Positions 1 to 38,038 of a DNA stretch of 38,038 nucleotides are shown here, one piece after another (the stretch's first letter is position 1; the number at the start of each line of letters is the position of its first letter). The stretch comes from Anaerolineae bacterium. Its GTDB lineage: Bacteria; Chloroflexota; Anaerolineae; B4-G1; SLSP01. The position numbers and the translations under genes are program-made. Where the stretch lies: the NCBI GenBank assembly GCA_016931315.1, contig JAFGFB010000245.1, forward strand, positions 1 through 38,038. The letters are read 5' to 3'. Below the pieces are notes generated by a model. That model saw nothing but the letters and a program-made list of their open reading frames with translations, was not told the DNA's origin and ran no database searches.

Positions 1-30
1 ATTTTTGCGGGCTGCGCCCGCAAAAATCAC
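1..30 (+). repeat. Palindrome family copy 1 (truncated by window edge)
   Basis: atttttGCGGGC-TGC-GCCCGCaaaaatcac. Confidence 0.85.
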
Positions 31-97
31 GCTCGCGGAGAGCGGCGCAGAGGGTTTTTTGAGTGATCTAGCCGATTTTGCCACTGTAGTTTTTTTT

Positions 98-141
98 TGT
101 GATTTTTGTGGACGGGGCTTCGCCTCACCACAAAAATCACA
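98..141 (+). repeat. Palindrome family copy 2 (imperfect inner stem)
   Basis: tgtgatttttgtggacggggCTTCGcctcaccacaaaaatcaca; T tract immediately 5'. Confidence 0.85.
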
Positions 142-367
142 CTTGCAGAAAAAAGGCGCAGAAAGTGGATCGCTGATGAGGGCCGTTTACAAGATGGCGA
201 TCTTATTTTCTCCAATAATCTGTCGTATACCCTTTGTGAGAGTATAGGACAAAGGCTGCCGCTTATTGGGAAGTTCAAGCGGTTGTACTCAACCGCGGTC
301 GGCTTGGGGAGACGCCTGCGGATAGACACTTGAGCACGCTGAAGAGATGCAGAGGGGGGGGCTTTTT

Positions 368-409
368 GTGATTTTCGTAAACAGGGCTGCGCCTCACCAC
401 GAAAATCAC
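368..409 (+). repeat. Palindrome family copy 3 (imperfect inner stem)
   Basis: gtgattttcgtaaacagggCTGCGcctcaccacgaaaatcac. Confidence 0.8.
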
Positions 410-509
410 ACCGGCAGAAAGAAGGCACAGAGTTCGCGTAAGGGTATAGGAGAGGTTTTTGGGGAAGACTGGAAGAGGTTGTGCAAACGGAGGAAGAGGA
501 TCTTTTTTT

Positions 510-546
510 GTATTTTTGGGACGCGCTTCGCGCGTCCCAAAAATAC
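510..546 (+). repeat. Palindrome family copy 4
   Basis: gtatttttGGGACGCGC-TTC-GCGCGTCCCaaaaatac; 17-bp perfect stem. Confidence 0.9.
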
Positions 547-572
547 TCCTGATCAAGGTTGAGGAGGTTACC

Positions 573-1964
573 ATGTTTAACAGAGGCAAGCGGTCAGTGT
601 TGAAAGGCGGGATGACCCTCGGCGTGTTGGTGATCATCCTCGCGGCGGTTTCGACGGGGGAAGCCGCCCCGATGCCCCTGGCGGATGCGCCTAAGTTATG
701 GGTCACTCCCCTGATATTGGACTTCGGTCCGGTGGGGCTGGGTGCGACCAGCGCAACCCAAACGGTGACGATTACGAACCTCGGCTCGGCGACGCTCACG
801 AATTTTGCGGGCGGCGGCGTGTATTCGCCATTCGGGGCGACGCAGAATTGCGCCGGCGGGGTGGCGCCCGGCGCGAGCTGCCAATACTTCTTCACGTTCG
901 CGCCCACGGCGGCGGGGGACTTTAGCGCCACGTCCAATACCTCCACCAATGCCGGTTCTTTTAGCATTCAGCTGCGCGGCAAGGGCGTGGGGGCGGGCTT
1001 GCACGTGAACCCGCTGGCGCTCGATTTCGGCTCGGTGTACGTCAACTCGACCAGCCCTACACAGAGTGTGGTCATTCGCAACACCGGCTTGAGCACCCTG
1101 ACGGATTTCGCGGGCGGCGGCGTCTATCCGCCATTTACAGCGTCGCAGAATTGCGCCGGTGGGGTGGCGCCCGGCGCGAGTTGCCGGTATTTCTTCACGT
1201 TCTCCCCCACGACGGCGGGGACGTTTGAGACATCATCGAATTCGTCCACCAACGCCGGGCCGTTCAGTATTGCCCTGGGAGGGAGAGGACGAAGCATGCT
1301 CCTTAGCTCGGGTCAGCGGGTGACGCCGCGTTCGATTGACTTTGGCCCGGTGGGCGTGGGCTACGAAAGTGGGACACAGGTGGTGACACTCACCAACCAG
1401 AGCATGTTGGTCAGCATTACCGATTTTGCGGGCGGCGGAGTCTTGCCGCCGTTTTACGCTTCGCAAAACTGTGCAGGTGGCGTAGCGCCCGGAGGGAATT
1501 GCCAGTTCTACTACACCTTTGAGCCGACGGCTACCGGCACAACTTCGACGACTTCCACTGTATCCAACAGCGCCGGATCGTTCACCATCGAGCTGCGCGG
1601 GACCGGCGCGGGGGCAGAGTTGCATGTGACGCCGCTCGCGCTCGACTTTGGACCGGCGCCGCTGTTCACGACGAGCGCAACCCAGAGGGTGACCATTCGC
1701 AACACGGGCCTGACGACGTTGACCCACTTCGCCGGAGGTGGGCTTTACCCGCCCTTCAGCGCCTCACAGAATTGTGCGGGCGGCGTACCACCGGGAGGCT
1801 CCTGCCAATACTTCTTCACGTTCACACCTACGGCGCAAGGCAGGTTTAGCGCGATATCCACTACCAGCACGAACGCCGGTTCATTTTCGATACAAGTTTA
1901 TGGCGGGGAAATGCTCCGCGTTTATCTGCCACTGGTGCTGCGGCAGGCAAGTACGGAGAAGTAA
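573..1964 (+). CDS. Secreted protein with four ASH/choice-of-anchor-D-like beta-sandwich repeats
   Basis: ORF 459..1964; preferred ATG at 573 preceded by gaggagg. Signal-peptide-like N-terminus (MFNRGKRSVLKGGMTLGVLVIILAAVSTGEA). Four repeats of 'LDFGPV...TSATQTVTITNTG...FAGGGVYPPF.ASQNCAGGVAPGASCQYFFTF'. C-terminus VYLPLVLRQASTEK. Confidence 0.85.
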   Translation: MFNRGKRSVLKGGMTLGVLVIILAAVSTGEAAPMPLADAPKLWVTPLILDFGPVGLGATSATQTVTITNLGSATLTNFAGGGVYSPFGATQNCAGGVAPGASCQYFFTFAPTAAGDFSATSNTSTNAGSFSIQLRGKGVGAGLHVNPLALDFGSVYVNSTSPTQSVVIRNTGLSTLTDFAGGGVYPPFTASQNCAGGVAPGASCRYFFTFSPTTAGTFETSSNSSTNAGPFSIALGGRGRSMLLSSGQRVTPRSIDFGPVGVGYESGTQVVTLTNQSMLVSITDFAGGGVLPPFYASQNCAGGVAPGGNCQFYYTFEPTATGTTSTTSTVSNSAGSFTIELRGTGAGAELHVTPLALDFGPAPLFTTSATQRVTIRNTGLTTLTHFAGGGLYPPFSASQNCAGGVPPGGSCQYFFTFTPTAQGRFSAISTTSTNAGSFSIQVYGGEMLRVYLPLVLRQASTEK

Positions 1965-1983
1965 GAGGGATATTGCAACTGAG

Positions 1984-2029
1984 GGTGTTTTTTTCGTTGG
2001 CGGGTGCAGCCCGCCAACGAAAAAACACC
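1984..2029. repeat. Palindrome family copy 5, between convergent genes
   Basis: ggtgtttttttCGTTGGCGGG-tgcag-CCCGCCAACGaaaaaacacc. Confidence 0.85.
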
Positions 2030-2044
2030 TGATGGACTCTTAGC

Positions 2045-4390
2045 TCAACGGGTAACGGGTTCGGGCGTCTCCAGAGTCTCCAGAGAGACGATGGCGTGGC
2101 AATTCTGGCATTGCGCCGCATCCTTGCGCACTTCGAGCAGCAGACCGCCGCAGGAGGGGCAGGGTTGCGCCAGGGGCCGTTTCCAGGAGGTGAATTCGCA
2201 TTCGGGCCAATTGGAGCAACCGTAGAAGATACGGCCCTTCTTGGTGCGCTTGACCACAACTTCGCCGGTGTGGCACTGGGGGCAGGCGACACCGATTTTC
2301 TCCAGCAAAGGTTCGGTATGGCGGCAAGTGGGGAAAGCCGAGCAGCCGATGAATTTGCCAAAACGACCCTGGCGAATGATGAGCGGCGCACCACAATCAG
2401 GGCAGTTACGCCCCACGTACTCCACAGCCGGCTCGACTTTCGCGATGGCAGCATCTGCCTTGTGCAGGGTCTGCTCAAAGGGACCGTAGAATTCGCGCAA
2501 GAGCGCGCCCCAATCCAGCTGCCCCTCGGCCACCTCATCCAGGCGTTCCTCCATGCCGGCGGTGAAATCCACGTTAATCAGGTCGGGGAAATGGGCGACC
2601 AGGAGGTCGTTGACCAGGAAACCCGTCTCGGTGGGGTACAGGCGGCGTTGCTCGCGCGCCACGTAACCCCGCTCCTGAATATTGCTGAGGATGGCGGCAT
2701 AGGTGGAGGGGCGCCCAATGCCATACTCCTCCAGTGTGCGAATCAGGCTGGCATCGGTGTAGCGTGAGGGAGGCTGCGTGAAGTGCTGCTCGGGCCACAG
2801 ACGAATCAGGTCCAATAATTCGCCCACCGTCAGGGGCGGCACGGGCTGCGAGTCTTCTTTCTGTTCGCCATTGCCGTTCTCTTCGCCAGTCTCCTCATAG
2901 ACCACCAGGAAACCGGGGAAGTTGAGGGTGGAGCCTGAGGCGCGGAACAGGTAGGGCTTATCGGCGCCGTGCCCGGCGGCAATTTCCACCGTGCGGGTAT
3001 CGTAGACCGCCGCCGCCATCTGGCTCGCCACAAAACGCCGCCAGATCAGGTCGTAGAGGCGGTACTGGTCATGTGAAAGATAAGGCTTGAGCTCGGCGGG
3101 GGTCCGCAACACGGCGGTCGGGCGGATGGCTTCGTGAGCTTCCTGCGCCCCCTTGGCCCGCGTCTTGTATTGCGGCGGCTCCGGCGGCAGGAATTGCGCA
3201 CCGTATTGCGCATTGACGTAATCGCGGGTTTCGGCCTGCGCGGTGGCGGCAACATTCGTACTATCCGTGCGCATGTAAGTAATCAAGCCCACCGGTTGGC
3301 CGTTGCCGATATCGAGACCTTCATAGAGCTGCTGGGCAATCCGCATAGTCTTGACCGCGGTGAAGTTGAGCTTGCGCGAGGCTTCCTGCTGCATGGTGCT
3401 GGTGGTATAAGGTGCGGAGGGACTGCGCCGCCGCTGGCCTTCTTTGAGCCGCAGCACCTCGTAATCGGCGCTCTCAAGATCTGCCAGCAAGGGCAAGACA
3501 TCCGCCTCGGCGCGCAGCTGCGGTTCCTCACCATTGATGCGCACCAAACGCGCGCGGAAGGTCTTGCGATGCCGCTTTTCGCGCGTGCTCTGGGGGGTCA
3601 ATTCCGCGTCGAGCGTCCAGTACTCTTCGGGGACGAAGGCTTCAATCTCGCGCTCGCGTTCCACCACCAGGCGGAGGGCGACCGATTGGACGCGACCAGC
3701 AGAGAGTCTGCCGCGGATTTTGCGCCACAGCAGCGGGCTTAGGTTATAGCCAACCAGGCGGTCCAAGACGCGGCGCGCCTGCTGCGCATTGACGAGGTCA
3801 AGGTTCAAGGAGCGGGGATGGGCGAAAGCCTCGGCGACGGCAGGCTCGGTGATTTCGTGAAAGACGACGCGATGGGTGCGTTCCGCGGGCAATTCCAAGA
3901 CCTCGCTCAGGTGCCAGGCGATGGCCTCCCCCTCGCGGTCGGGGTCAGTGGCGAGGTAGATATCCCCGGCTTTAGCCGCCGCAGTCTGAAGTTCTTTGAC
4001 CACGGCGCGTTTTTCATTGGGGACGCGGTATTTGGGTGCGAAGTTGTGCTCCACATCCACGGAGAGCTGCGAACGCAACAAATCGCGGACGTGGCCCACC
4101 GAGGCTTTGACGGTGTAGCCCTTGCCGAGGAAGCGCCCGACGGTGCGCGCCTTGGCGGGCGATTCGACGATGACGAGCTTGCCGGTGGGTTTGGGGGCTT
4201 CGACCACGGGTGGTTTCAGCGCCTCGTGCGCCGGGATGCGACCCATGCGGAACATCTTGGTGCCGCAGACCGGGCAGACCCCTTGTACGGCGGGCTTAGC
4301 CTGCGCGGTAAAGACGGCAGTCGGCTGCGCCATCTCGCGCGTCTGACGGCATTTCATACAATAAGCTTCGATTTTCAAATCCTCAACCAT
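2045..4390 (-). CDS. topA: DNA topoisomerase I (type IA) with N-terminal CxxC (DUF5679-like) domain and C-terminal zinc ribbons
   Basis: GKLVIVESPAKARTVGRFLG, TDPDREGEAIAWHL, AGRVQSVALRLVVEREREI, TYMRTDST; C-terminal CPDCG/CPQCH/CPSCG modules. Start at MVEDLKIEAYCMKC (4390), with ggaagg upstream. Confidence 0.96.
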   Translation of the reverse strand: MVEDLKIEAYCMKCRQTREMAQPTAVFTAQAKPAVQGVCPVCGTKMFRMGRIPAHEALKPPVVEAPKPTGKLVIVESPAKARTVGRFLGKGYTVKASVGHVRDLLRSQLSVDVEHNFAPKYRVPNEKRAVVKELQTAAAKAGDIYLATDPDREGEAIAWHLSEVLELPAERTHRVVFHEITEPAVAEAFAHPRSLNLDLVNAQQARRVLDRLVGYNLSPLLWRKIRGRLSAGRVQSVALRLVVEREREIEAFVPEEYWTLDAELTPQSTREKRHRKTFRARLVRINGEEPQLRAEADVLPLLADLESADYEVLRLKEGQRRRSPSAPYTTSTMQQEASRKLNFTAVKTMRIAQQLYEGLDIGNGQPVGLITYMRTDSTNVAATAQAETRDYVNAQYGAQFLPPEPPQYKTRAKGAQEAHEAIRPTAVLRTPAELKPYLSHDQYRLYDLIWRRFVASQMAAAVYDTRTVEIAAGHGADKPYLFRASGSTLNFPGFLVVYEETGEENGNGEQKEDSQPVPPLTVGELLDLIRLWPEQHFTQPPSRYTDASLIRTLEEYGIGRPSTYAAILSNIQERGYVAREQRRLYPTETGFLVNDLLVAHFPDLINVDFTAGMEERLDEVAEGQLDWGALLREFYGPFEQTLHKADAAIAKVEPAVEYVGRNCPDCGAPLIIRQGRFGKFIGCSAFPTCRHTEPLLEKIGVACPQCHTGEVVVKRTKKGRIFYGCSNWPECEFTSWKRPLAQPCPSCGGLLLEVRKDAAQCQNCHAIVSLETLETPEPVTR

Positions 4391-4510
4391 TTGCTTTCCT
4401 TCCACTCCAGGCCCATGACGCATCTGGAGACGCTTTCCGCTCCCAACAACGGGTGCATTTCACCTTTGGGGCAAAGAGAAGACGATTATCACACAAACGC
4501 CTTTCTTTTG

Positions 4511-4555
4511 ATTGATTTTTGGCGCAGGGGCTTTGCCCCCGCGCCAAAAATCAAT
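4511..4555. repeat. Palindrome family copy 6 (ATTGATTTTTG subfamily)
   Basis: attgatttttGGCGCaGGGGC-TTT-GCCCCcGCGCCaaaaatcaat; one mismatch. Confidence 0.88.
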
Positions 4556-4801
4556 TTTATTCTACGCCCCATAGGGGATGTTTAAGATCGTCGCCCCCAT
4601 TCTGAAACGCACTCCCAACAACGATGCACGAATTCGGACGGCGGCAATCATAAAGGAAAGCTGCGAAACTGTCAAGTGCGAGTTTGGGAGGGGGTATAGG
4701 ACAAAGGCTGCCGCTTATTGGGAAGTTCAAAGATCGGCTGGGTGAGACCATATGTCTAGACACTTGAGCACGCTGAAGAGGCGCAGAGGGTGGTTCTTTT
4801 T

Positions 4802-4844
4802 GTGATTTTCGTGAACGGGGCGCAGCCCCGTTCACGAAAATCAC
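4802..4844 (+). repeat. Palindrome family copy 7
   Basis: gtgattttCGTGAACGGGGC-GCA-GCCCCGTTCACGaaaatcac; 20-bp perfect stem. Confidence 0.9.
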
Positions 4845-5046
4845 TCCTGCAGAAAGAAGGCGCAGAGAGTTGAAGGCTAATGGGAGTCGTTTGCGAGATG
4901 GCGGTCTTATTTGCTCCAATAATCTGTCGTATACCCTTTGGGAGGGGGTATAGGACGAATTATTGGGAAGTTCAAAGGTCAACTGGGTGAGACCATATGT
5001 CTAGACACTTGAGCACGCCAGAGAGGCGAAGAGGGTGGTTCTTTTT

Positions 5047-5089
5047 GTGATTTTCGTGAACGGGGGCTGCGCCTCACCACGAAAATCAC
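5047..5089 (+). repeat. Palindrome family copy 8 (imperfect inner stem)
   Basis: gtgattttcgtgaacgggggCTGCGcctcaccacgaaaatcac. Confidence 0.85.
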
Positions 5090-5227
5090 TCCTGACAGTA
5101 CCCTTTGGGAGGGGAGTGTGATTCGCGGCGGAGAAAGCTCCGCCGCGAATGAGTATGGGATGGAGAAAGCCAGGCTGGAGCCTGGCGCTCCCAGAGTATG
5201 GCGCTCCCAGAGTGTGGCGGTCCCAGG

Positions 5228-6310
5228 TTAGAGCAGATCGTCGCGGTTCTGATGGTGCAGGGTTTCGACGATTTCACGCACGCGCTCAGCCTGGTCGCGG
5301 GTGGTAATCAAGGTGACGTCGGCGCTATCCAGGATGATGAGGTCGTGCAAGCCAATAGTGGCAATGAGGCGGCCGGCGCTGGAGAAGACCATCGAAGCGG
5401 TGGTGTCGAGCGTCAGGACGTCGCCCTGCAAGACATTGCCCTGGGCATCGGGCGTGTGTAATTCGCTCACGGCGGGCCAGGCGCCCACATCGGACCAGCC
5501 CAAATCCACGGGGAGCACGGCGACACGTTCGGCCTTTTCCATGATGCCGTAATCAATGCTCTTTTTGACGACGGTGGGCCAAAGGCGCGCCAGGAGGGAG
5601 GCGTAATCCGGCGTTCCGAGGACATCGCCCAAGGCTGCGAGCGTGGCTGAGAAATCGGGCATCCAGCGGGCGAATTCTTCCATGATGCGCTCGACCTGCC
5701 AGATGAACATGCCGCTATTCCAGGCATAATCCCCATCAGCCAGGAAACGCACGGCGGTCTCGGCATTCGGTTTTTCGGCGAACTGCGCCACCCGGAAAGC
5801 CGTGAAGCCGGAAAAATCTCCGAGCGGCTCGCCACGGCGGATGTAGCCGTAACCGGTGGCGGGGTAGTCAGGCTCGATGCCGAGGGTCACCAGGTAACCC
5901 TGCTCAGCGACCGCGCGCGCCGCCTGCAAGGCATCACAGAAAGCCTCGACGCGGCGGATGTAGTGGTCGGCGGTGACCACAGCCATTACTGCCTGCGGGT
6001 CACGGCGTTGCAGGTGCAACGCCGCCAGCCCGATGCAGGGGGCGGTGTTGCGGCCCATAGGTTCCACGATGAAGTTCTCCGCCGGCAGTTCTGGGACCTG
6101 CTCCGCCAGAGGGCTGACCTGTTCAGCGCCCGTAACGACCAGGATATGCTCCGGCGGCAAAAAGGAACGCAGACGGTCCACAGCCAGCTGAAACAGGCTG
6201 CGCTCACCCACCAGGGTCAGCATCTGCTTGGGGTGTTCGCGACGGCTCAGGGGCCACAAGCGTGTCCCCCCACCCCCAGCCATAATCAAGGCGTAGAAAT
6301 GCTCGTTCAA
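5228..6310 (-). CDS. manC: Mannose-1-phosphate guanylyltransferase
   Basis: ALIMAGGGGTRLWPLSRREHPKQ; VEPMGRNTAPCIGLAAL; FAEKPNAETA; DLGWSDVGAW. Probable TTG start at 6310 after ggaggcgcc; the ORF-track start is 6340. Confidence 0.9.
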   Translation of the reverse strand: MNEHFYALIMAGGGGTRLWPLSRREHPKQMLTLVGERSLFQLAVDRLRSFLPPEHILVVTGAEQVSPLAEQVPELPAENFIVEPMGRNTAPCIGLAALHLQRRDPQAVMAVVTADHYIRRVEAFCDALQAARAVAEQGYLVTLGIEPDYPATGYGYIRRGEPLGDFSGFTAFRVAQFAEKPNAETAVRFLADGDYAWNSGMFIWQVERIMEEFARWMPDFSATLAALGDVLGTPDYASLLARLWPTVVKKSIDYGIMEKAERVAVLPVDLGWSDVGAWPAVSELHTPDAQGNVLQGDVLTLDTTASMVFSSAGRLIATIGLHDLIILDSADVTLITTRDQAERVREIVETLHHQNRDDLL

Positions 6311-6361
6311 GGCGCCTCCTCGGAAATAATCAAATGCCAAGTCAGAAGTAACTGTTCAACA

Positions 6362-6404
6362 GTGTTTTTGGGTTGGCGGGCGCAGCCCGCCAACCCAAAA
6401 ACAC
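6362..6404. repeat. Palindrome family copy 9
   Basis: gtgtttttGGGTTGGCGGGC-GCA-GCCCGCCAACCCaaaaacac; 20-bp perfect stem. Confidence 0.9.
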
Positions 6405-6475
6405 ATTCCAGAAAGCGAATTTGACCACAAGCCTCAGTGAGGCGTCGCATCGTGCTGCAATTTTCGGACAGGTTC

Positions 6476-7684: not shown

Positions 7685-7847
7685 GTACCCCCTCTTGATA
7701 ATGTTTTCAGTATCTGTCCGCGAATTCAGCTCGATGCGGGAGAAAGCAAGGCCTTGAGTACAAGGGCCTTGTAATAAGTTTTCAGGTTACTGTTCAGCGT
7801 TATCCTGCTTGCCACAACCCAGAGCGGCTAAAGCCGCGATTTTAGAG

Positions 7848-7890
7848 AGTGTTTTTGGCTGCCGCGCTACGCGCGGCAGCCAAAAACACT
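7848..7890. repeat. Palindrome family copy 10, nested in a larger inverted repeat
   Basis: agtgtttttGGCTGCCGCGC-TAC-GCGCGGCAGCCaaaaacact; 20-bp perfect stem. Confidence 0.9.
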
Positions 7891-8054
7891 TCTTATAGCG
7901 GGCTTTAGCCCGAAATTCGCGCTCTGCGATGGAAGTCTGAACAGTTACGTTTTCAGAATTTAATCCGGTAATAGAGTGTTCGCAAGCGGCACAAGCTTTA
8001 TTCAGCCGTCCCTACAGGACGGGATTTGTAATCCACACGGTTGTACAGGCACTG

Positions 8055-8350
8055 ATGAGTTTTCAGAATTTAATCTGGTATTAAGAGGATTGGCCTCTTA
8101 TTCCCCCATCCCCCCAACCCCCTTCCCCCACCGGGGGAAGGGGGAGTTTGGGCTCGGTTGCACCGTGGGGGTGGTTGTGATATCCATGGGTTTCTCGACA
8201 CCAGGGTTGTGCAACCGGGATTCGGGATTTTGGTAAATGGGATGCGATCTGTGTGCGGCGAAAGCCAGCGCCTAACGCGCATGGGCGGTGACGGGTCGTG
8301 CAAGTGAGCGAGAGCGCGAAGGTGTACCGAAGTAAATTTTGAAAGTTCAT
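8055..8350. mobile_element. MITE-like element with ~25 bp terminal inverted repeats (copy 1)
   Basis: Left atgagttttcagaatttaatctggt (8055-8079); right accgaagtaaattttgaaagttcat (8326-8350), reverse complement matching 19/25. Confidence 0.5.
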
Positions 8351-8405
8351 AAGCGCCTGCCACCTCTCAGACGTCCCTACGGGACAAAGAGAGACCACAG
8401 GGGCC

Positions 8406-12877: not shown

Positions 12878-12998
12878 AAGTCTCCGGCTCCACCCGGTTC
12901 GTCACATTCTAACGGAAAATGGGATTTCGTCAAGCAAAGAAACGGGGGAGAGAGAGGTTTAGGACGCAGATGAACGCTGATGAACGCGGATAGGGAAG

Positions 12999-13200
12999 AA
13001 TTTAACGCAGAGACGCTGAGGCGGGGAGAACGCAGAGGGGGAGATTTAATGCTGAGGGTGCAGAGGGGGAAGAATTTAACGCAGAGACGCTGAGGGCGCA
13101 GAGGACGCAGAGGGAAAAGCAGGTGACGGGTTGCAGGGTGGGTGAAAATTGGGGAGGGGGGAGAATTTAACGCAGAGACGTAGAGGGAAAAGCAGGTGAG
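12999..13200 (+). repeat. Degenerate 'TTTAACGCAGAGACGCTGAGG' repeat cluster
   Basis: tttaacgcagagacg at 13001, ~13076 and ~13166; agagggaaaagcaggtga twice. Confidence 0.8.
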
Positions 13201-13207
13201 ACCTCCC

Positions 13208-13235
13208 TTGTCAAACGGGGGGCTTGAGGCATAAT
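13208..13235 (+). promoter_or_regulatory. Putative sigma70-type promoter upstream of the PBP gene
   Basis: TTGTCA - 16 nt - CATAAT (13208-13213, 13230-13235), about 110 nt upstream of ATG 13344. Confidence 0.4.
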
Positions 13236-16938: not shown

Positions 16939-17094
16939 GGGGTCTCCTTGAGAGTTTATGGATAGGTTGTGAAGGCGGTTGCCCAACGTCAGATTGTAAT
17001 GGAGAGTGTACACGGATTGTGAGAGAATGCCAGTCGCTGCAACTGGGGTGCATTCAAAAAAGCTTGAGCGGCAATAGTGGCTAGACTGACGATC

Positions 17095-17227
17095 ATGTGG
17101 GCGATGCAAGAACACAAAGAGGTAGCTTTTTTTTGTGATTTTTGCGGGCTGCGCCCGCAAAAATCACGCTTGCGGAGAGAGGCGCAGAGGGGTTTTTTTG
17201 AGTGATCTAGTCGATTTTGCCACTGTG
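17095..17227 (+). repeat. Repeat sharing flanks with 28110-28275 and 1-90
   Basis: gggcgatgcaagaacacaaagaggtag...hairpin...gcttgcggagagaggcgcagagggg...gagtgatctagtcgattttgccactgtgg. Confidence 0.7.
17135..17167 (+). repeat. Palindrome family copy 11
   Basis: gtgatttttGCGGGC-TGC-GCCCGCaaaaatcac. Confidence 0.9.
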
Positions 17228-17373
17228 GAAAAAACACTTTTTTATGATACAATCCAGTGGTGATGGGTTTGGGCCAAGAGGGGATACCACATTCCTGATT
17301 TTTGCCAGCGCGGCGCAAGATGTGGATGAGGTGGCGGCGCTCCTGGCGACGAGGTAGAAACGGATAGGCGCGG

Positions 17374-18447: not shown

Positions 18448-18759
18448 ATGAGTTTTCAGAATTTAATCCGGTAATAAGGGACGTCCGCGCAGGCGCAGGT
18501 GCTATTCAAGCGTCCCTACGGGACGCCCCTGGTTTCCCGCGTTATTGCAGGCGTTGAAGCGCTGAGTACAGCGACGCCTGCCTACTCTCAGGCGTCCCTA
18601 CGGGACGAAGAACGCATCGTGATGCGCCTCTACCGCCCGGGACAGGTTGCTGGACGGAGGTAAGAGACCTTTCGACTTCGCTCCACTTCGCTCAGGGTGA
18701 CGAGTAGTGTAAGGTGAGCAGGAACGCGAAGTATACCGAAGTAAAATTTGAAAACTCAT
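18448..18759. mobile_element. MITE-like element with ~25 bp terminal inverted repeats (copy 2)
   Basis: Left atgagttttcagaatttaatccggt (18448-18472); right accgaagtaaaatttgaaaactcat (18735-18759), reverse complement matching 21/25. Confidence 0.55.
18496..18552. repeat. 57-bp direct repeat, copy 2
   Basis: Identical to 18233-18289; contains palindrome CGTCCCTACGGGACG. Confidence 0.85.
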
Positions 18760-22112: not shown

Positions 22113-22186
22113 GATTTGGAGGGGTGACAGATTTTGGGTGGAAGTTGGAGGAGGTTGGGCAAAGAGGAAAAGAGGTTTCTCTTTTT

Positions 22187-22223
22187 GTGTTTTTTGGTCG
22201 CGCTACGCGCGACCAAAAAACAC
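22187..22223 (+). repeat. Palindrome family copy 12
   Basis: gtgttttttGGTCGCGC-TAC-GCGCGACCaaaaaacac, followed by tttttta. Confidence 0.9.
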
Positions 22224-22414
22224 TTTTTTAGGAAGATGAATAGGGAGGACAGTTGGCCGCGTTGTGCGCGGTTAAAACACTTTTGAGGAAGGCAGATGGG
22301 GAGCACAGTTGGCCGCGTTGTGCGCGGTTAAAACACTTTTGAGGAAGGCGGATGGGGAGGACAGGCGGGTTGTTGGGGGAAGTTGTGCAAAGAGAGGAAG
22401 AGGTTTCTCTTTTT

Positions 22415-22451
22415 GTGTTTTTGGGTCGCGCTACGCGCGACCCAAAAACAC
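22415..22451 (+). repeat. Palindrome family copy 13
   Basis: gtgtttttGGGTCGCGC-TAC-GCGCGACCCaaaaacac, followed by tttttta. Confidence 0.9.
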
Positions 22452-22709
22452 TTTTTTAGGAAGATGAATAGGGAGGACAGTTGGCCGCGTTGTGCGCGGG
22501 CGAAACACTTTTGAGGAAAGCGGATGGGGAGCACAGTTGGCCGCGTTGTGCGCGGTCAAAACACTTTTGAGGAAGGCAAATGAGGACAGTTGTAGTTTTG
22601 AACTGCGCTATGCGCGACCAAAGCCACTTTTTAGGAGGGCGGATGGGGCATTGCAGGCGTCAAGGATTTAGCCGATAGCGGGCGTTTCGGTGATGCCGGC
22701 AAGTTGGGT

Positions 22710-25374: not shown

Positions 25375-26409
25375 ATGCCTGCCGTCACAGCGATGGCGCA
25401 TCCGAATCTGGCGCTGGTGAAATACTGGGGGCAGCGGGATACGGTGCGGCAGCTGCCGTTGAACGATTCGATTTCGGTCAATCTCAGTGGGGCAACGACA
25501 ACGACGACCGTGCAGTTCGATGTGGCGCTGGAGAAGGATGAATTTGAACTCGATGGCGCCCGCCCCTCAGCGGCAGCTGTGGCGCGCGTCAGCGCGCACA
25601 TGCAGCGCATTCGAGCGCTGGCGGGTATACCCACCTATGCCAGGGTGCAATCGCGCAATTCCTTTCCCGCCGGCATTGGCATCGCCTCATCGGCATCAGG
25701 GTTTGCCGCGCTGACGTTGGCGGGCACACGCGCCGCCGGGCTGGCGCTGGATGCAAAGGCGCTCTCCTCGCTGGCGCGTCTGGGGTCAGGCTCCGCCTGC
25801 CGCTCGATCCCCGACGGTTTTGCGGAATGGCTCGCCGGAACGGGTGAGGATTCCTATGCGGTGCAACTGGCGCCGCCGGAGCACTGGGATTTGGCGATTG
25901 TGACGGTGTATTTCGACCCGCAGCCAAAGGCGATTTCGTCATTAGAAGGGCATCGCGCCGCGCCAAGCAGCCCGTTCTTCGAGGCGCGCTTGCGGCAACT
26001 GGGGGAGACGTTGCGCACGGTGCGCTGGGCAGTGCTCGAGCGGGATTTCAGCACCCTGGGCATGGCGGTGGAGCGGGAAGCGCTCTCGCTGCATGTCATC
26101 GCGATGAGCTCAAGGGTGGCGGGGCAGCCACACTTGAGTGGCATCTATTACTGGCAACCGCAGACGCTGGCGCTGATGCACGCCGTGCAGCGCTGGCGCG
26201 CCGAGGGGCTGGCGGTGGCTTTTACGCTGGACGCGGGTCCGGCGGTGCATCTGCTGGTCGAGGCGGAGAATCGCGGGGCGCTGCTGGAAGCGGTGGGAGG
26301 CGTGCTACCCGCTCTCGGCGGGCAGGTGCTGGTGAGCGCTCCGGGAATGGGGGCGCGCGTGGTAGATGAGGAGAAGGGGAAGTTTAACGCAGAGAGCAGA
26401 GTGTTTTAA
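25375..26409 (+). CDS. Diphosphomevalonate/phosphomevalonate decarboxylase family (GHMP superfamily)
   Basis: HPNLALVKYWGQRD; FPAGIGIASSASGFAALTLAG; LARLGSGSACRSIPDGFAEW; FTLDAGPAVHLLVE. Confidence 0.88.
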   Translation: MPAVTAMAHPNLALVKYWGQRDTVRQLPLNDSISVNLSGATTTTTVQFDVALEKDEFELDGARPSAAAVARVSAHMQRIRALAGIPTYARVQSRNSFPAGIGIASSASGFAALTLAGTRAAGLALDAKALSSLARLGSGSACRSIPDGFAEWLAGTGEDSYAVQLAPPEHWDLAIVTVYFDPQPKAISSLEGHRAAPSSPFFEARLRQLGETLRTVRWAVLERDFSTLGMAVEREALSLHVIAMSSRVAGQPHLSGIYYWQPQTLALMHAVQRWRAEGLAVAFTLDAGPAVHLLVEAENRGALLEAVGGVLPALGGQVLVSAPGMGARVVDEEKGKFNAESRVF

Positions 26410-26476
26410 CGCAGAGACGCAGAGGCGCTAAGGAAAGACAGGGTATGGGTGGCGCGGGTGATGTGGATAGGATATA

Positions 26477-26506
26477 ACAGCGCGCAACCGTGGGGTTGCG
26501 CGCTGT
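26477..26506. terminator. Stem-loop between convergent genes, probable bidirectional terminator
   Basis: acagcgcgcaacc-gtgg-ggttgcgcgctgt followed by tgtgtt; lies between 26409 (+ stop) and 26525 (- stop). Confidence 0.65.
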
Positions 26507-26524
26507 TGTGTTACGGCTCAGGGA

Positions 26525-27875: not shown

Positions 27876-28012
27876 TCAGGGGGGGGGTATAGGGCAAAGG
27901 CTGCCGCTTATTGGGAAGTTCAAGCGGTTGTACTCAACCGCGGTCGGCTGGGGGCGATACCTACGGATAGACGCTTTGGCACGCTGAAGAGATGCAGAGG
28001 TAGTTTTTTTTT

Positions 28013-28045
28013 GTGATTTTTGCGGGCTGCGCCCGCAAAAATCAC
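28013..28045 (+). repeat. Palindrome family copy 14
   Basis: gtgatttttGCGGGC-TGC-GCCCGCaaaaatcac. Confidence 0.9.
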
Positions 28046-28146
28046 GCTTGCGGAGAGAGGCGCAAAGGGGGGTTTTTCTACGATGGCAAACCTGGCTAGA
28101 CGAACGGGCCTGTGGGCGATGCAAGAACACAGAGGGGTAGTTTTTT

Positions 28147-28179
28147 GTGATTTTTGCGGGCTGCGCCCGCAAAAATCAC
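28147..28179 (+). repeat. Palindrome family copy 15
   Basis: gtgatttttGCGGGC-TGC-GCCCGCaaaaatcac. Confidence 0.9.
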
Positions 28180-28282
28180 GCTTGCGGAGAGAGGCGCAGA
28201 GGGTTTTTTGAGTGATCTAGCCGATCTTGCCACTGTAGTTTTTTTTGAGTGATCTAGCCGATTTTGCCACTGTGGTTTTTTT

Positions 28283-28325
28283 GTGATTTTCGTGAACGGG
28301 GCGCAGCCCCGTTCACGAAAATCAC
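28283..28325 (+). repeat. Palindrome family copy 16
   Basis: gtgattttCGTGAACGGGGC-GCA-GCCCCGTTCACGaaaatcac, identical to copy 7. Confidence 0.9.
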
Positions 28326-28364
28326 ACTTGCAGAAAGAAGGTGCAGAGAGTTAGCGGCTAAAGT

Positions 28365-30203: not shown

Positions 30204-30222
30204 TGTTGACCTTCACCTGATT

Positions 30223-30531
30223 TTAGTTGCGCATGACCAACGGTAGGAAGACCGTGTGCCGTGTGATTACCGCTGCCCCAGGCCAGAAACCGCTGCTGAG
30301 TTCAAAGCCACCGCCGGAAAGTGCGTTTCCCGCCTCCGGTTGCCCCGCTGTGCCCAGCAAAACGAAGTCGCCGCCAGCGAGCTGGTTACCGCCGCCATCC
30401 ACAGTCCACCAGCTGAGCTCATAGCCAGCGCCGACCTGGGCTGGCGCCAACGCCTGAGCCTGGGAATTTCTCAGAGCCAGGAAACCGATGAGCAGAGAAA
30501 GCAACGCCAAAGTAAATAGTAATGGTTTCAT
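30223..30531 (-). CDS. Small secreted protein with C-terminal VFLPLVMRN motif
   Basis: 102 aa: MKPLLFTLALLSLLIGFLALRNSQAQA...YELSWWTVDGGGNQLAGGDFVLLGTAGQPEAGNALSGGGFELSSGFWPG...HTVFLPLVMRN. Confidence 0.75.
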   Translation of the reverse strand: MKPLLFTLALLSLLIGFLALRNSQAQALAPAQVGAGYELSWWTVDGGGNQLAGGDFVLLGTAGQPEAGNALSGGGFELSSGFWPGAAVITRHTVFLPLVMRN

Positions 30532-30546
30532 CTGATTACCGCCTTT

Positions 30547-32070: not shown

Positions 32071-32099
32071 GCTGCACCTTCTTTGAGCATTGAATTCTG

Positions 32100-33314
32100 C
32101 TAATAGGGAGCGTTGATCGTGTACTCGATGACAATAAAGCGTAGATCCACCCATTGCATCGTCACCAACGTCGCCTCGAGGAAGTAGGTGTGATTCTGAT
32201 TATCCACGAGGGCGTAATTGATTGTCGTGGTGCTGTTGCTGCCGAAACCGTCATCACCGGTAGACGTGACCGTCGCCAACAGTTCATCAGAATCGCGCCA
32301 TAGATTGACAGTAGCGTCCCTGTCCGTATCCCGGTCATAGTAGTGGAAGGTCAGTGACGTCACCGTGGCGCCGTGAGGGAGGTTGACCGGCGCCTCAAAC
32401 TGTGACACAGTGCAAGGGGAGTCGTAAACGGTAAGTCGGTCTCCGATGTTGATGTAGTAAGGGGTGAGGCATACCGGGTTATTGGTCGAAGCATAGGGTA
32501 TGAAGGCAGCTGCCGGCACCGAGATGTAGCTAGTTTTGGGCTGCCAGGTCAGTTCGCCCTGTACGTGAGCATTACCGGCAGAGTAGACGCCGTAACCATC
32601 CGGCGAGGCATTCTCACCGTAGACGCCGTAGCCCCAGTGAGAGTTGCTTTGACCCCAAACACCGTAGCCGAAACTGTAGTCGCCGGCGTCGTTATCGCCG
32701 CCGAAGACGCCAACACCGCCGCGAGATCTGGAGGTGAATCTGCCACCGAAAGCCTGGTAGTCGAATGCCGTAGCCAGGGAGGTCGCCTCACCGTGAACCG
32801 CAACGCCGTTCTCAGCCGAGTTTCTGACGTGAAGCGTGGCGCCTTCTGTACCAAAGACCTGCGCTCCGGGACGCAGGCTGTGGGCATAGGGCACAGCGGT
32901 GAGCTCCACACGTCCACTCAGGAGTGTGTAGGAGCCCACAGTGCTGGGACAACGCACGTAGACTTGCATCCAGCGGGCATCGCCCGTGAAAGCCGCGCCA
33001 CCGAAGTCGAGGAGAGCCGTGAACTTGCCCTCGGTGACCGGGACGGTCACTGCGGCATCACCGACGGATTCACCGCCGCCGACGGCATCGAAAAGGGCAA
33101 AGGCGAAATCGCAGGTCGCCGTGACGGGGCTGCCATTCTGGACCAGATATCCCTGGTAGGTGATGGCGTTTCCAACAGGAGCCTCCACGCCGGACGCAGT
33201 TGAGGGGGCATCCTCCCCGGTTGACGCTTGAGATAGGGCGAAGATTGCAGAGTTGCCGGTTGCCATGATGAGCATCAGGCATAACAGTAAACCAACAAAG
33301 ATTCGGTATTTCAT
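32100..33314 (-). CDS. Secreted protein with the same 'TYQGYL' N-terminal module
   Basis: Signal-like MKYRIFVGLLLCLMLIMATGNSAIFA; ITYQGYLVQNGSPVTATCDFAFALFDAVGGGESVGD...LDFGGAAFTGDARWMQVYVRCPSTVGSYTLLSGRVELTAVPYAHSL. Confidence 0.8.
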   Translation of the reverse strand: MKYRIFVGLLLCLMLIMATGNSAIFALSQASTGEDAPSTASGVEAPVGNAITYQGYLVQNGSPVTATCDFAFALFDAVGGGESVGDAAVTVPVTEGKFTALLDFGGAAFTGDARWMQVYVRCPSTVGSYTLLSGRVELTAVPYAHSLRPGAQVFGTEGATLHVRNSAENGVAVHGEATSLATAFDYQAFGGRFTSRSRGGVGVFGGDNDAGDYSFGYGVWGQSNSHWGYGVYGENASPDGYGVYSAGNAHVQGELTWQPKTSYISVPAAAFIPYASTNNPVCLTPYYINIGDRLTVYDSPCTVSQFEAPVNLPHGATVTSLTFHYYDRDTDRDATVNLWRDSDELLATVTSTGDDGFGSNSTTTINYALVDNQNHTYFLEATLVTMQWVDLRFIVIEYTINAPY

Positions 33315-33412
33315 GTCAGCGTTCCTTTCGCACTAGATTATTCGGAATTCCCGGTGACTACAGCGATAAAGCGGAGATGCGAAGTCGGGTCTTGAGCTAA
33401 GCGCTGCCGGTG

Positions 33413-33622
33413 TTATCGCAAGCCCTGTGGTTCTATCAGGTCAACGGCAGCGGCGCGCAATTCGATAAAAACCAACAGCTCATCCAGGCTGCGAAAACCG
33501 ACCGATTCGCCGCTGCTGGTGTGTTGAATCCAGCCCTGCCAGGAGGGCGCGCCTCCTTCGCGCCAGATACGCACGATGAAGACATCTCTGTGGGCCGGTT
33601 GAAATTGCTGTTTAGATTCCAT
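33413..33622 (-). CDS. Small conserved-looking hypothetical protein
   Basis: MESKQQFQPAHRDVFIVRIWREGGAPSWQGWIQHTSSGESVGFRSLDELLVFIELR...; ATG 33622, or the longer TTG-start version at 33661. Confidence 0.6.
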   Translation of the reverse strand: MESKQQFQPAHRDVFIVRIWREGGAPSWQGWIQHTSSGESVGFRSLDELLVFIELRAAAVDLIEPQGLR

Positions 33623-33628
33623 AGAAAA

Positions 33629-33654
33629 ACTGCCACCTTGTTCTAGGTGGCAGT
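33629..33654 (-). terminator. Terminator-like hairpin + TTTTT immediately upstream of the small ORF start
   Basis: On -: actgccacc-tagaacaa-ggtggcagt then TTTTC TATGG. Confidence 0.6.
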
Positions 33655-33764
33655 TTAGCAAAAAGGTCTCTCGGGTTTATCTCGCGGCGGGTGAATCCCG
33701 CACGAACCAGGTTGCCAATTAGCGCCGGGGGCGTTTCAAAATGGGGGTAAAAATCTCGGAGAAA

Positions 33765-33807
33765 ATTGATTTTTGTGATGGGGCAAAGCCCCATCACAAA
33801 AATCAAT
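33765..33807 (-). repeat. Palindrome family copy 17 (ATTGATTTTTG subfamily, flanks match copy 6 on the opposite strand)
   Basis: attgatttttGTGATGGGGC-AAA-GCCCCATCACaaaaatcaat; 20-bp perfect stem. Confidence 0.9.
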
Positions 33808-33874
33808 CAAAGAGAAGGTATTTGCATGCCAGTCAGCTTGCTTTTGCCCCAAAACTAAAAGGCACCCTTAACGG

Positions 33875-36800
33875 TTAGCGCCCCCGCGTGTGGATTTCGT
33901 GGCCCTCCGCGCGCAGGGCGGCAATATCGCGACGGAGCGTGCGCAAGCCCACACCTAGCGCCGCGGCAAGATCTTCGTCACGGGGGCTTGCGCCCTGCGC
34001 GGTCGCCTCAGCGAGCAACCTGAGAAGGCAACGCTGGCGGCGGGAGGTCTTATTGGCAATAGTCTGGTCATCTGGATGCTCCACCGTCCAGGTGACGGAC
34101 ACAGTTTCCTCCGGACGCAGGGCGCGCCCGGTAGGCGCCGCAGCGCGAGGGAGACGAAGCGTGAGGCGACGCGGTTGGAAGGCTTTCCAGGCGGTCATGA
34201 GCTGCCGGTGCAAGGGCACGTCCTCCACAAAGGCGCGTTGCCAGGAAGGGTCGGACAGGGCAGCGCAACTCTGCTGGAGCTCGGCACAGGCGCGTTCCAG
34301 CGCTGCCCGCGCCAGCTCAGGCTTTCGGGCAGCATCGAGGATTCGATAGTAGTAAAAGCATACATCGAGCATAGGCGGCGTATCGGGACGCGATTCCATC
34401 TCGGCGAAAGCCTGGACAATCAGAGTCTGCGCGACATTCACTTCGCCCAGGTGGAAATGGGCGATGGCTAAAGCTGCGCGGGACGTGGTCTGGTAGTAGG
34501 GATAACCGCTGCGCTCATACGCGTGCAGTGCCTCCTCGAAACGCATGAGTGCGCCAGCATAGTCGCCCCGCGCCAGGTATAATTCCCCAAAGCGGTAGTG
34601 GACGGTCGCCTGCATCAAGGCAGCATCCAATTCACGCACGATGGTTTCAGCCTGGCAAAGCGCCCGTTCAGCGCCTTCAAAGTCGCCAGTGTTGGTCAAC
34701 AATTCGGCGAGGCTGGAGAGGATGCGCGCCTCATCATCGGCAAGGGCAAGCTGGCGCGCGAGCGGCAAGACCGTGTTGAGCGCCTGCCGCGCCAAGGCGA
34801 GTTGCCCGGTGTTCTTGTAGCGGGAGCTGAGGTTGAGAAGGGTGATGACCTGTCCGTGTTGGTGGCCAATCTGCCGAAAAATCTCCAGGGCTTGCCGGGT
34901 GGTTTCGATGGCGGGACCATGCTCACCGAGGGCGTTATAAGCCAGGCCCAGGTTGTTGAGCGCCACGCCCTCGTAATAGCGATGGCCAATGGCGCGCATT
35001 TGGGTGAGCATTTCCCGGCAATGCGCCGCCTCGGCGCGATGGTCGCCGCGCGCGCGGGTAATCCAGGCGAGGGCGTTGTGAACGCGGGCCGTGGATAAGG
35101 GGTCGGCGCCGGTCGGGGCTTTTGCGAGCGCCGTTTGCGCCGTCTCCTGCGCCCGTTCGAGGTCTCCGAGGTCGCGGTAGGTCATCACAAGCGAGACGTA
35201 GATGGCGATTTCACTGCTGCCAGCCGCGGGCGAGTTCTGAAATTCAGCCAGAGCGTGTTGATAGGCTTCGAGGGCGGGGGCGTTATGCCCGATTTGCTTC
35301 CAGGCAGTCCCAATCGCCAGCCAGGCGCGAGAAATCTGGTGACGGAACCCATGCTCCTGCGCCAGGGCAAGAGCAGCTGCCGCCGCCTCGCGCGCAGCTT
35401 CGTATTCGCTGGTAGATTCACTCAGGTATTCTGCCCGTTGTAGCAGGGCCTCGACCTGGTGTTCTGGGGTAGCCAGGGTCTCCGCCAGGGATAGCAGCGT
35501 CTCGATATCGGTGCGGTAGCTTTCGCGCTCGCCCCGGAGACGCCAAAGAGGGCACCGAGCCACACGCAGCTCGAAGCCCAACGCGGTCTCCGCCGGAGCG
35601 GGCAAGGGGTGCGCCTGCTCCAAAATGGCAAGAGCGCGCGCATAAGCCTGCAAAGCCGCCTCATTGGCGTAGACTGCTGCGGCTCTTTTGCCCGCGGCGA
35701 AGTAGATGTCTACAGCCCGCTCCCATAATTCGCCACGGTCGAGATGCAACGCCAATGCAGTCAGGTTCTCGGGATGGACTTCGGCAATAGCCCGCGCGAC
35801 ACGCTGATGCGTTGCCCGCTGCGCCTCGTGGCTGAGCGTCCGGTACGTCACCTGTCGCACCTGGTCGTGGCTGAATTCGTAGGCAGATGGGCGTTCGATC
35901 AGGAAATGGCGGCGCACCAGAGCGCGCAATGTTGGGAGCAGCTGCGGTGCGTTTTGCTCGCATGCGACCTGGAGCAGGCGGAGATCGAAATCGTTGCCGA
36001 TGACGGCGGCAGTTTCCAAAACCGCCCGCTCGGCAGGTTCCAATTGCGCCAGACGCCGGGCAATGACCTGTTCCACGGCAGGTGGCAGCGGCAACTCGGC
36101 ATAAGCCGCAGTGGTTTGATCCCAGGGGGTGCTCCACTGACCTGCGGAGTCTCGCAGCAGCAGCCCCTCATCGGCAAGTGCGCGCAGGATTTCCAGCATG
36201 AAGAGCGGATTGCCGCCCGTCTCTTGATAGACCCGGCTTTCAAAGAGAGGCGCCGCGTGGCTGATAGCCAGACTGCGACGGATCAATTCACCGGAGGCAG
36301 CGGCATCGAGCGAGGACAGCTGCACCCACTCATGCTGCCCCGGGCGGTGCAGGGCTTGCAGCCGTTCCCAAACGTAAGGGCGCGCTTCGGCCTCATCCCG
36401 GCGATAGGAGCCGATGATGGCCACACGGTGCGCCGTGAGGCGCCGGTCGAGCGCCGCCAACACTTCCAGGCTATCACCGCCAGCCCAGTGAAGGCCCTCA
36501 AGAATCAGGACGAGCGGGCGGGTCGCACTCCAGGCACCGAGCAACTCGGCGAAAGCGTTGATCAGCCGTTCGCGCTCACGTTCCGGTTCCAGAGCGGGGG
36601 CACTCTCCGGAGCCACGGCAGCAAGTTCCGGCAACAAAGGGCGGAGCACCTGGAGCCAGATCGGGGCGACGAGCTGCGACCACTGTTCGACGCGCAACGG
36701 CGAAAGCTCATGGCGCAACGCCGTCACCCAAATATCGAAAGGCGCCAGGCCAACGTCTTCGCGGGCCCGCCCCCAGAGGACGGCGATATCGCGCCAAGCG

Positions 36801-37744
36801 GCATCGCGAGCTACTTCTTGTAGCAGGCGTGTTTTGCCCACGCCGGCTTCGCCTTCAACCCAGATCAAAGTGCCCGCGCCGCCGATAGCAGCTTCCAGAT
36901 GCGCCAGCAGCGCAGCGCGCTCTTCGCGACGCCCGATGAGGGGCATCTGCGACGGCAGAGCAGCGCCGCCTGCGGTGCGGATGGGCGGGCGCAGGGTCTG
37001 GGGAAGGTAGGGCTCAGCCGGGGCGCCCATCCGCCGGGCGATTTCACGCGCCAGCGCGAGGGTCTCGGCTTCGGGTTGAACGTGAAGCTCGGTCTCCAGA
37101 ATGTGGCAACAGAGCTCGGCTTGCCTGAGCGCCTCGGCGTCGCGGTTGAGGAGGTGCAGGAGGCGCATCACCTCGCGGTGCGCCGCTTCGCGCCAGGAAT
37201 CCTCCGCCACCAGGCGCCGGGCGATGGTGAGGGCACGCTCGTAATCACCGCGCGCTTTCAGCGCGTTGGTCAGCTGCCCAAGCAGCTCGAGTAGACGTTC
37301 GCGCAGACGCTCGCGCTCGAAAAGCACCCAATCCTCGTAATAGCCCGCCAGAAAGTCGCCGCGGCAAAGCCCCACAGCCGCAAGCCAGGCGGCTAAGGCG
37401 TTCTCGTTCGTCGCGGGACATGCCGCGAGTCTTTCGAAATCGGCGATATCCAAGGCAAGCGGCATATCGGGGGCAAGCCGCACGCCGGCGCTCTCTGTAT
37501 CCAATTGAAAGTGAGGTCCCAAAGATTTGCGGATCAACCAGAGAGCCTGGCTCAGGCGCCGGCGCGCCAGGTCATCGGGCAGGTCGGGCCAGAAGGTGCC
37601 GGCGAGCAGATCACGGGTATGGGAACGATCACGGTAGGTGAGGAGATAAGCCAGGAGCGAGCGGACGGTGGCGTTGGAAATGGGCGGCGGCGGGATGCCG
37701 TCGCAGGTCAAATGCAAGCCGCCGAAAAGCCGGGCAGATAACAT
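33875..37744 (-). CDS. Giant transcriptional regulator: N-terminal OmpR/BTAD (SARP-like), AAA ATPase, TPR repeats, C-terminal HTH
   Basis: MLSARLFGGLHLTCDGIPPPPISNATVRSLLAYLL; ALDIADFERL..YYEDWVLFERERLRERLLELLGQL; LIWVEGEAGVGKTRLLQEVAR; TPR series; C-terminal RRQRCLLRLLAEATAQGASPRDEDLAAALGVGLRTLRRDIAALRAEGHEIHTRGR. Confidence 0.92.
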   Translation of the reverse strand: MLSARLFGGLHLTCDGIPPPPISNATVRSLLAYLLTYRDRSHTRDLLAGTFWPDLPDDLARRRLSQALWLIRKSLGPHFQLDTESAGVRLAPDMPLALDIADFERLAACPATNENALAAWLAAVGLCRGDFLAGYYEDWVLFERERLRERLLELLGQLTNALKARGDYERALTIARRLVAEDSWREAAHREVMRLLHLLNRDAEALRQAELCCHILETELHVQPEAETLALAREIARRMGAPAEPYLPQTLRPPIRTAGGAALPSQMPLIGRREERAALLAHLEAAIGGAGTLIWVEGEAGVGKTRLLQEVARDAAWRDIAVLWGRAREDVGLAPFDIWVTALRHELSPLRVEQWSQLVAPIWLQVLRPLLPELAAVAPESAPALEPERERERLINAFAELLGAWSATRPLVLILEGLHWAGGDSLEVLAALDRRLTAHRVAIIGSYRRDEAEARPYVWERLQALHRPGQHEWVQLSSLDAAASGELIRRSLAISHAAPLFESRVYQETGGNPLFMLEILRALADEGLLLRDSAGQWSTPWDQTTAAYAELPLPPAVEQVIARRLAQLEPAERAVLETAAVIGNDFDLRLLQVACEQNAPQLLPTLRALVRRHFLIERPSAYEFSHDQVRQVTYRTLSHEAQRATHQRVARAIAEVHPENLTALALHLDRGELWERAVDIYFAAGKRAAAVYANEAALQAYARALAILEQAHPLPAPAETALGFELRVARCPLWRLRGERESYRTDIETLLSLAETLATPEHQVEALLQRAEYLSESTSEYEAAREAAAAALALAQEHGFRHQISRAWLAIGTAWKQIGHNAPALEAYQHALAEFQNSPAAGSSEIAIYVSLVMTYRDLGDLERAQETAQTALAKAPTGADPLSTARVHNALAWITRARGDHRAEAAHCREMLTQMRAIGHRYYEGVALNNLGLAYNALGEHGPAIETTRQALEIFRQIGHQHGQVITLLNLSSRYKNTGQLALARQALNTVLPLARQLALADDEARILSSLAELLTNTGDFEGAERALCQAETIVRELDAALMQATVHYRFGELYLARGDYAGALMRFEEALHAYERSGYPYYQTTSRAALAIAHFHLGEVNVAQTLIVQAFAEMESRPDTPPMLDVCFYYYRILDAARKPELARAALERACAELQQSCAALSDPSWQRAFVEDVPLHRQLMTAWKAFQPRRLTLRLPRAAAPTGRALRPEETVSVTWTVEHPDDQTIANKTSRRQRCLLRLLAEATAQGASPRDEDLAAALGVGLRTLRRDIAALRAEGHEIHTRGR

Positions 37745-37769
37745 TGCTTCTCCCCCTCACATTGCTCCT

Positions 37770-37798
37770 ATTATAGCGGCAGATTGGATAGGGCGCAA
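37770..37798 (-). promoter_or_regulatory. Putative promoter of the BTAD-ATPase-TPR regulator
   Basis: On -: TTGCGC - 17 nt - TATAAT, about 30 nt upstream of ATG. Confidence 0.45.
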
Positions 37799-37815
37799 AC
37801 CTCATTTTTCGGGGG

Positions 37816-38038
37816 TCGAGGACAAAGGCTGCCGCTTATTGGGGAGTTCAAAGATTACCTTGGGGAGACACCTGCGGATAGACACTTTGGCACGCGGAAG
37901 AGATGCAGAGGTAGTTTTTTTTGTGATTTTTGTGGACGGGGCTTCGCCTCACCACAAAAATCACACTTGCAGAAAAAAGACGCAGAGAGTTAACGCCTGA
38001 TGTGGGTCGTTTGCAAGATGGCGGTCTTATTTTCTCCA
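37816..38038 (+). repeat. Composite intergenic repeat, copy d (runs off window)
   Basis: gacaaaggctgccgcttattggggagttcaa (37821-37851), palindrome, tgcaagatggcggtcttattttctcca. Confidence 0.75.
37923..37964 (+). repeat. Palindrome family copy 18 (imperfect inner stem)
   Basis: gtgatttttgtggacggggCTTCGcctcaccacaaaaatcac, same as copy 2. Confidence 0.85.

Follow-up and report, generated by a model that had tools for sequence, protein, structure and literature searches.

Bacterial MITEs such as Correia/NEMIS, Chunjie and QMITE2 are short, non-coding, intergenic elements with inverted repeats at their ends, 6-9 bp duplications and hundreds of copies, and their transcripts are expected to form stem-loops (PMC10969869). 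All of these properties are shared by the elements described here, which were found in a 38,038-nucleotide contig of an Anaerolineae bacterium (the window, i.e. the whole stretch of DNA that was analysed). Their kind is therefore known, whereas what is new is a concertedly evolving palindromic core that is common to unrelated families. Unlike the described MITEs, families with different ends share a T-left GC palindrome with a variable, self-complementary stem, and no parent insertion sequence was identified here. Integron attC sites are comparable in that structure is conserved more than sequence, but the cores lack the GTTRRRY/RYYYAAC core sites and their arms are fully paired, without extrahelical bases. 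With respect to how such pairing can arise, polymerase template switching between inverted repeats is reported to homogenise the arms and invert the spacers in yeast (PMC8604942), and it has been put forward as the process by which perfect RNA stems arise and are kept (PMC8794818). Arm homogenisation, spacer inversion and imperfect intermediates are all seen here as well, but the published cases are single-copy loci or RNA genes, whereas here hundreds of dispersed copies are involved and half-cores are exchanged between element families.

The window is part of a draft genome of 4.35 Mb in 330 contigs that is 88.8% complete (G000) and that has two sister genomes, also draft assemblies, in the same genus (G002 and G003). 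An earlier note on the window had described 18 palindromes of one architecture, and the structure is indeed present at all 18 sites, at the positions given there except that the copy placed at 98 starts at 99 (Table 1). The note's statement that most of them are perfectly paired also holds, with 14 of the 18 being perfect or near-perfect palindromes. The four exceptions (at 99, 368, 5047 and 37923) are informative, as they combine a left arm GTGGACGGGGC or GTGAACGGGGGC with a right arm GCCTCACCAC. A scan of the window for hairpins (stem of at least 11 bp, at most one mismatch) gave 22, versus 1-4 in three Markov-1 shuffles.

Table 1. Palindromic cores and their carrier elements in the window (TSD, target duplication)
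Feature	Position	Strand	Details
A-family core GCGGGC-TGC-GCCCGC	1-30	.	cut by contig end
B-family core, mixed arms GTGGACGGGGC / GCCTCACCAC	99-140	+	
B-family core, mixed arms GTAAACAGGGC / GCCTCACCAC	368-409	+	
E-family left half	442-546	+	end repeat GGGTATAGGAGA; conserved GAGGTTGTGCAAAC..GAAGAGG region; palindrome 510-546
Palindrome core, F-type stem CGTTGGCGGG	1985-2028	+	
D-family MITE (element 4451-4614)	4443-4622	-	palindrome 4511-4555; ends GGGTGCATTTCA / TGAAACGCAC; 8-bp TSD CCAACAAC at 4443-4450 and 4615-4622
B-family MITE (element 4692-4936)	4683-4945	+	palindrome 4802-4844; ends GGGTATAGGACA / TGTCGTATACCC; 9-bp TSD TTTGGGAGG on both sides
Shortened second B copy	4946-5112	+	mixed-arm core 5047-5089; further TTTGGGAGG at 5104
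F-family palindrome GGGTTGGCGGGC	6359-6407	-	
C-family MITE (element 7786-7948)	7778-7956	+	palindrome 7848-7890; ends GTTACTGTTCAG / CTGAACAGTTAC; 8-bp TSD GTTTTCAG at 7778-7785 and 7949-7956
A-family MITE (element 17062-17228)	17056-17234	+	palindrome 17135-17167; AAAAAA on both sides (6 bp)
Two E-type cores (22187-22223, 22415-22451)	22120-22451	+	degenerate half-palindromes between
Composite	28013-28326	+	A-type-stem cores 28013-28045 and 28147-28179; one B core 28282-28326
D-family copy	33729-33867	+	palindrome 33765-33807
B-family core, mixed arms	37923-37964	+	

The palindromes are dispersed, as the earlier note had it, but that note missed the enclosing elements with their terminal repeats and target duplications. 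Most palindromes are not free-standing repeats: they form the centres of at least five MITE families (A-E here), and the flanks of the cores are repeated as well. The elements are non-coding and measure ~110-400 bp (mostly 160-255 bp). They end in GGGTATA[GC]GACA (B and E), GGGTGC[AG]TTTCA (D) or GTTACTGTTCAG (C), while the ends of A resemble each other, and the target duplications amount to 9 bp in many copies of B, 8 bp in D, 8 bp in C, 6 bp in A and 9 bp in E. Paired B-type end repeats occur at 28 places, about half of them with 8-9 bp duplications, most of which are exact; G000 holds 82 + 87 ends of the B/E type. Family E has its ends in common with B, and one complete copy carries ACGGCAAAT on both sides; the right half of the E copy at 442-546 was not recognised. 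Relative to G002, the A copy and the D copy at 33765 are insertion polymorphisms: the A site is present there in uninterrupted (empty) form, CACTCAAAAAACACTTTTTTGTGATACAATCC (L065), and the D copy is missing at the corresponding site. The B element at 4692-4936 is also missing from the corresponding gap in G002. Given the terminal repeats, the target duplications and the empty site, it is close to certain that the carriers are MITEs, the families of which are spread through the intergenic DNA of one Anaerolineae genus.

An autonomous partner was sought by means of paired ends 0.65-3.5 kb apart in 2.1 Mb (an incomplete genome), which yielded chance pairs only, without duplications. An IS1-like partner, hinted at by the end sequence and the 9-bp duplications, was rejected, as PF03400 is absent in five congeners. 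The elements also invite comparison with REP/BIME/REPIN sequences and their TnpA-REP (PMC3733652), which are likewise high-copy intergenic palindromes (20-45 bp) whose stems differ between families. Although short, high-copy intergenic palindromes with hairpin DNA are what a RAYT (Y1/HUH) transposase would spread, the palindromes here are embedded in longer elements with end repeats, the 6-9 bp target duplications contradict such an origin, the stem flanks carry no conserved GTAG/CGTC tag, and no Y1_Tnp domain (PF01797) was found in the 88.8% complete G000, all of which makes REP elements a most improbable identification.

Beyond the window, G000 has 103 places that match GTGATTTTYG..CRAAAATCAC and none that match the reversed control. 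A wider pattern gave 262/210 matches in G000, 214/172 in G002 and 111/98 in G003 (controls at most 5), and far fewer in two further congeners. The same architecture is found, in lower numbers, in genomes from other genera of this family, such as G012 and G013. Besides these pattern counts, copy numbers refer to a 2.1 Mb sample from G000, G002 and G003 that was selected for palindrome content, so that its densities do not stand for genome averages. This sample contains 258 T-left palindromes with 119 different inner stems. A mere handful of recent duplications, the outcome that the earlier note had considered as counting against it, is thus not what was found. The same note knew of no named family with this exact layout, and none emerged: the Rfam scan of the window returned no matching RNA family, neither Rfam nor the literature searched contained an exactly matching element, and the literature on palindromes and MITEs in Chloroflexi consisted of a general REP survey only.

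In each core, the 5' arm carries T-runs and the GC stem is capped by a C-NNN-G triloop. Across the 2.1 Mb from three genomes, 264 hairpins have four consecutive Ts on the 5' arm versus 19 with As, and at high stem scores the ratio of T-left to A-left is 145 to 3. The closure of the triloop by C-G, noticed earlier in the window, extends to 204 of 209 triloops in the sample, with GNA/TNC making up 58% of triloops, versus 17% in other (control) hairpins. Short d(GC-GNA-GC) DNA hairpins are unusually stable, and d(GCGAAGC) is used for this stability. The predicted DNA hairpin folds of the cores are stable as well (z of -7 to -12). That GC hairpins adjoin T-runs in intergenic DNA could suggest bidirectional intrinsic transcription terminators, but the T-run lies 5' of the stem on both strands, whereas a terminator requires a U-tract 3' of it. 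In addition, cores occupy gaps of every gene orientation at a density that is lowest in convergent gaps (0.55/kb, compared to 0.69 in tandem and 0.90 in divergent ones), whereas it is the terminator-like A-left hairpins that concentrate in convergent gaps. It is therefore very hard to regard the cores as terminators. A start codon following a purine-rich SD-like motif and a T-run was also considered, but was rejected from the E and B sequences, since core length varies modulo 3 and neither GTG nor ATG is kept.

The earlier note's central claim, that pairing rather than sequence is conserved, is borne out by 108 distinct 33-nt cores, in which 98.0% of positions are Watson-Crick paired versus 59.6% (maximum 62.0%) when the 3' letters are shuffled. 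Because choosing copies by their pairing had to be avoided, the copies for the arm-pairing test were collected by flank similarity only. The arms were nevertheless found to be unpaired at only 0.4% of positions in A (30 copies), 8.1% in B (67), 5.0% in C (27) and 4.1% in D (103), compared to the ~23%, ~38%, ~32% and ~41%, respectively, that are expected from flank divergence if both arms drift independently at the flank rate. Relative to the commonest stems, 50 changes affect both arms with pairing kept, 14 are confined to the left arm, 17 to the right arm, and 3 affect both arms without pairing, i.e. a ratio of compensated to one-arm changes of 50:31. The compensated changes comprise 30 distinct ones, of which 18 are private to a single copy. 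Hypervariability of the stems was ruled out, as stem divergence between copies is similar to flank divergence within each family (and lower in A).

The two arms do not only match each other, but the sequence between them also occurs in both directions. When oriented by the flanks, the loops read AAA in 25 and TTT in 21 copies of D, TGC in 16 and GCA in 8 copies of A, and TAC in 6 and GTA in 5 copies of C, with few intermediates between the two orientations. Longer interiors are exactly inverted as well, namely 29 nt in B (L262 versus L252) and 24 nt in C (L233 versus L210), with identical flank orientation in both pairs. Furthermore, in mixed-arm cores half of one common stem is joined to half of another, and such joins occur in either polarity in B (window 99 versus L079:1865) as well as in D (L194:13450 versus L231:8989), while at L079:11750 a D half and a B half are joined at the core. 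With draft assemblies, in which the palindromes are frequently at contig ends, mixed cores could partly be assembly joins, although they are present in more than one genome.

Following these results, it seems that the arms of the MITE cores evolve in concert by fold-back or template-switch copying, to which we assign a probability of roughly 0.7. During replication of such a core, the nascent strand would continue, by folding back or by a switch, on the other arm or the other strand, or in some cases on the core of a different element. One arm would thereby be copied onto the other, giving perfect pairing whatever the sequence, while the loop or interior may be inverted and half of one core may occasionally be joined to half of another; mixed cores could later regain perfect pairing by the same copying. 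Which cores remain in this cycle probably depends on how stable the hairpin is (GC stem, C-GNA-G loop). Judging from the sequence patterns, the perfect pairing most likely results from copying of one arm onto the other.

Compensatory change in a stem is usually taken as evidence of selection on structure, and the earlier note had left the choice between selection on a folded form and a copying process that regenerates palindromes. Of these, copying is favoured, because loops and long interiors are inverted, mixed arms of either polarity occur and many of the compensated changes are confined to a single copy. Selection of a folded form, be it a DNA cruciform or hairpin or an RNA hairpin (with a role in transposition, RNase processing or regulation), would favour compensatory mutations and would agree with the very high pairing, the many compensated changes, the excess of GNA/TNC triloops, the consistent T-run on the 5' arm and the stable predicted folds. 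It cannot, however, by itself invert loops or interiors of 24-29 nt, and what is seen are MITE cores scattered over gaps of every orientation, with no Rfam match in the window. Moreover, copies that have lost the palindrome exist, of which the core-less D copies look like deletions leaving AAAATCAAT. Since the literature describes arm homogenisation combined with spacer inversion as the signature of template switching, fold selection is not required for the pairing and is an unlikely explanation of it, although a stable DNA or RNA hairpin may be under selection as well.

Many of the patterns expected of template switching could also result from ectopic exchange between copies. As the sole cause, such exchange is disfavoured by the private compensated changes; nothing else argues against it. 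It also contributes, as the D insertion common to L247 and L248 is more diverged than its surroundings over the entire element and not in the core alone. Nor is the correction of arms universal: an imperfect 51-nt palindrome (AGAGCGTGTTTTTCGGCGCCGTGC..) at L066:15578 and L085:13822 is identical in G002 and G003, at the same site and with differing flanks, and is possibly a conserved functional element.

Template switching alone does not account for one core layout across unrelated MITE families. The palindrome could be mobile or homing in its own right, inserting into, and moving between, different MITE families, given that one architecture is found inside families with different ends, that stems are common to several families (e.g. 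a C-type GGCTGCCGCGC-like stem beside E flanks at L208) and that 29 of 268 cores have no recognised family flank. This is nevertheless doubtful, with no family copy having an intact pre-insertion site, the core-less D copies resembling deletions and no duplication being seen around the core itself, while the sharing of stems is explained by half-exchanges. Somewhat less improbable, yet still tentative, is that the core is a hairpin module living in unrelated MITE families, which is copied whole or by halves via template switching and persists since the exchanges restore the palindrome.

Near-complete compensation together with loop inversion, in hundreds of dispersed and probably non-functional copies, means that this genus lends itself to asking how often template switching alone produces 'covariation', and calls for caution when RNAs are sought by covariation in intergenic repeats. 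The analysis also adds several undocumented MITE families in Anaerolineae, with half-element exchange at a palindromic joint, and a core common to unrelated families makes arm copying easy to study.

A number of further observations concern gaps and repeats of other kinds. The gap corresponding to window 22120-22451 holds E-type cores with other stems in G002 and G003; that the same gaps are filled in more than one species is probably a matter of gap size, given that ~30-40% of gaps of 300-500 bp are occupied in general. At 22224-22650 in the window, degenerating half-palindromes TTGGCCGCGTTGTGCGCGGTTAAAACAC are arranged in tandem with a period of ~80 bp, both in the space separating the two E cores and behind the second one. 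Purine-rich intergenic repeats of the AACGCAGAGACGCAGAGG type (window 12940-13210 and 26370-26480) form a separate dispersed family without palindromes, and words related to them occur in the A and B flanks.

A second, micro-palindrome always has GAGTAC at its centre, between complementary stems that vary (GCGGTTGAGTACAACCGC, CGCCGAGTACGGCG, CGCTGAGTACAGCG, GCATTGAGTACAATGC). With a stem of at least 4, it occurs at 60 places, versus a mean of 2.3 for permuted centres, among others at 279-296, 7752-7765, 18560-18573 and 27924-27941 in the window and at L102:7290-7370, L096:910-1040 and L099:12269-12310 elsewhere. These palindromes are often inserted in the flanks of MITE B and are sometimes in tandem, and sometimes their stems resemble adjacent sequence.

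Palindromes were also seen in other bacteria. In the actinobacterial Pseudonocardiaceae Dino_bin31 (L151:7436, L169:5492, L170:7670), GTGATTTTTGG-type palindromes lie inside GGTGA..TCACC and differ in their stems (GGTGC-CATA-GCACC, GGGGT-TATA-ACCCC and one mixed form). Syntrophomonadaceae AS06 (Firmicutes) has recurrent GTGATTTTCGGGGACAGTCCCC..AAATCAC palindromes (L131:4386, L131:6364, L166:5391, L178:6161). In Crocosphaera MAGs, a 33-nt palindrome GTGATTTTCGAGGTTCGATGCCTCGAAAATCAC with arms as in the Anaerolineae cores is present on several contigs, often near their ends (L106, L140, L143, L147, L156, L161, L168).
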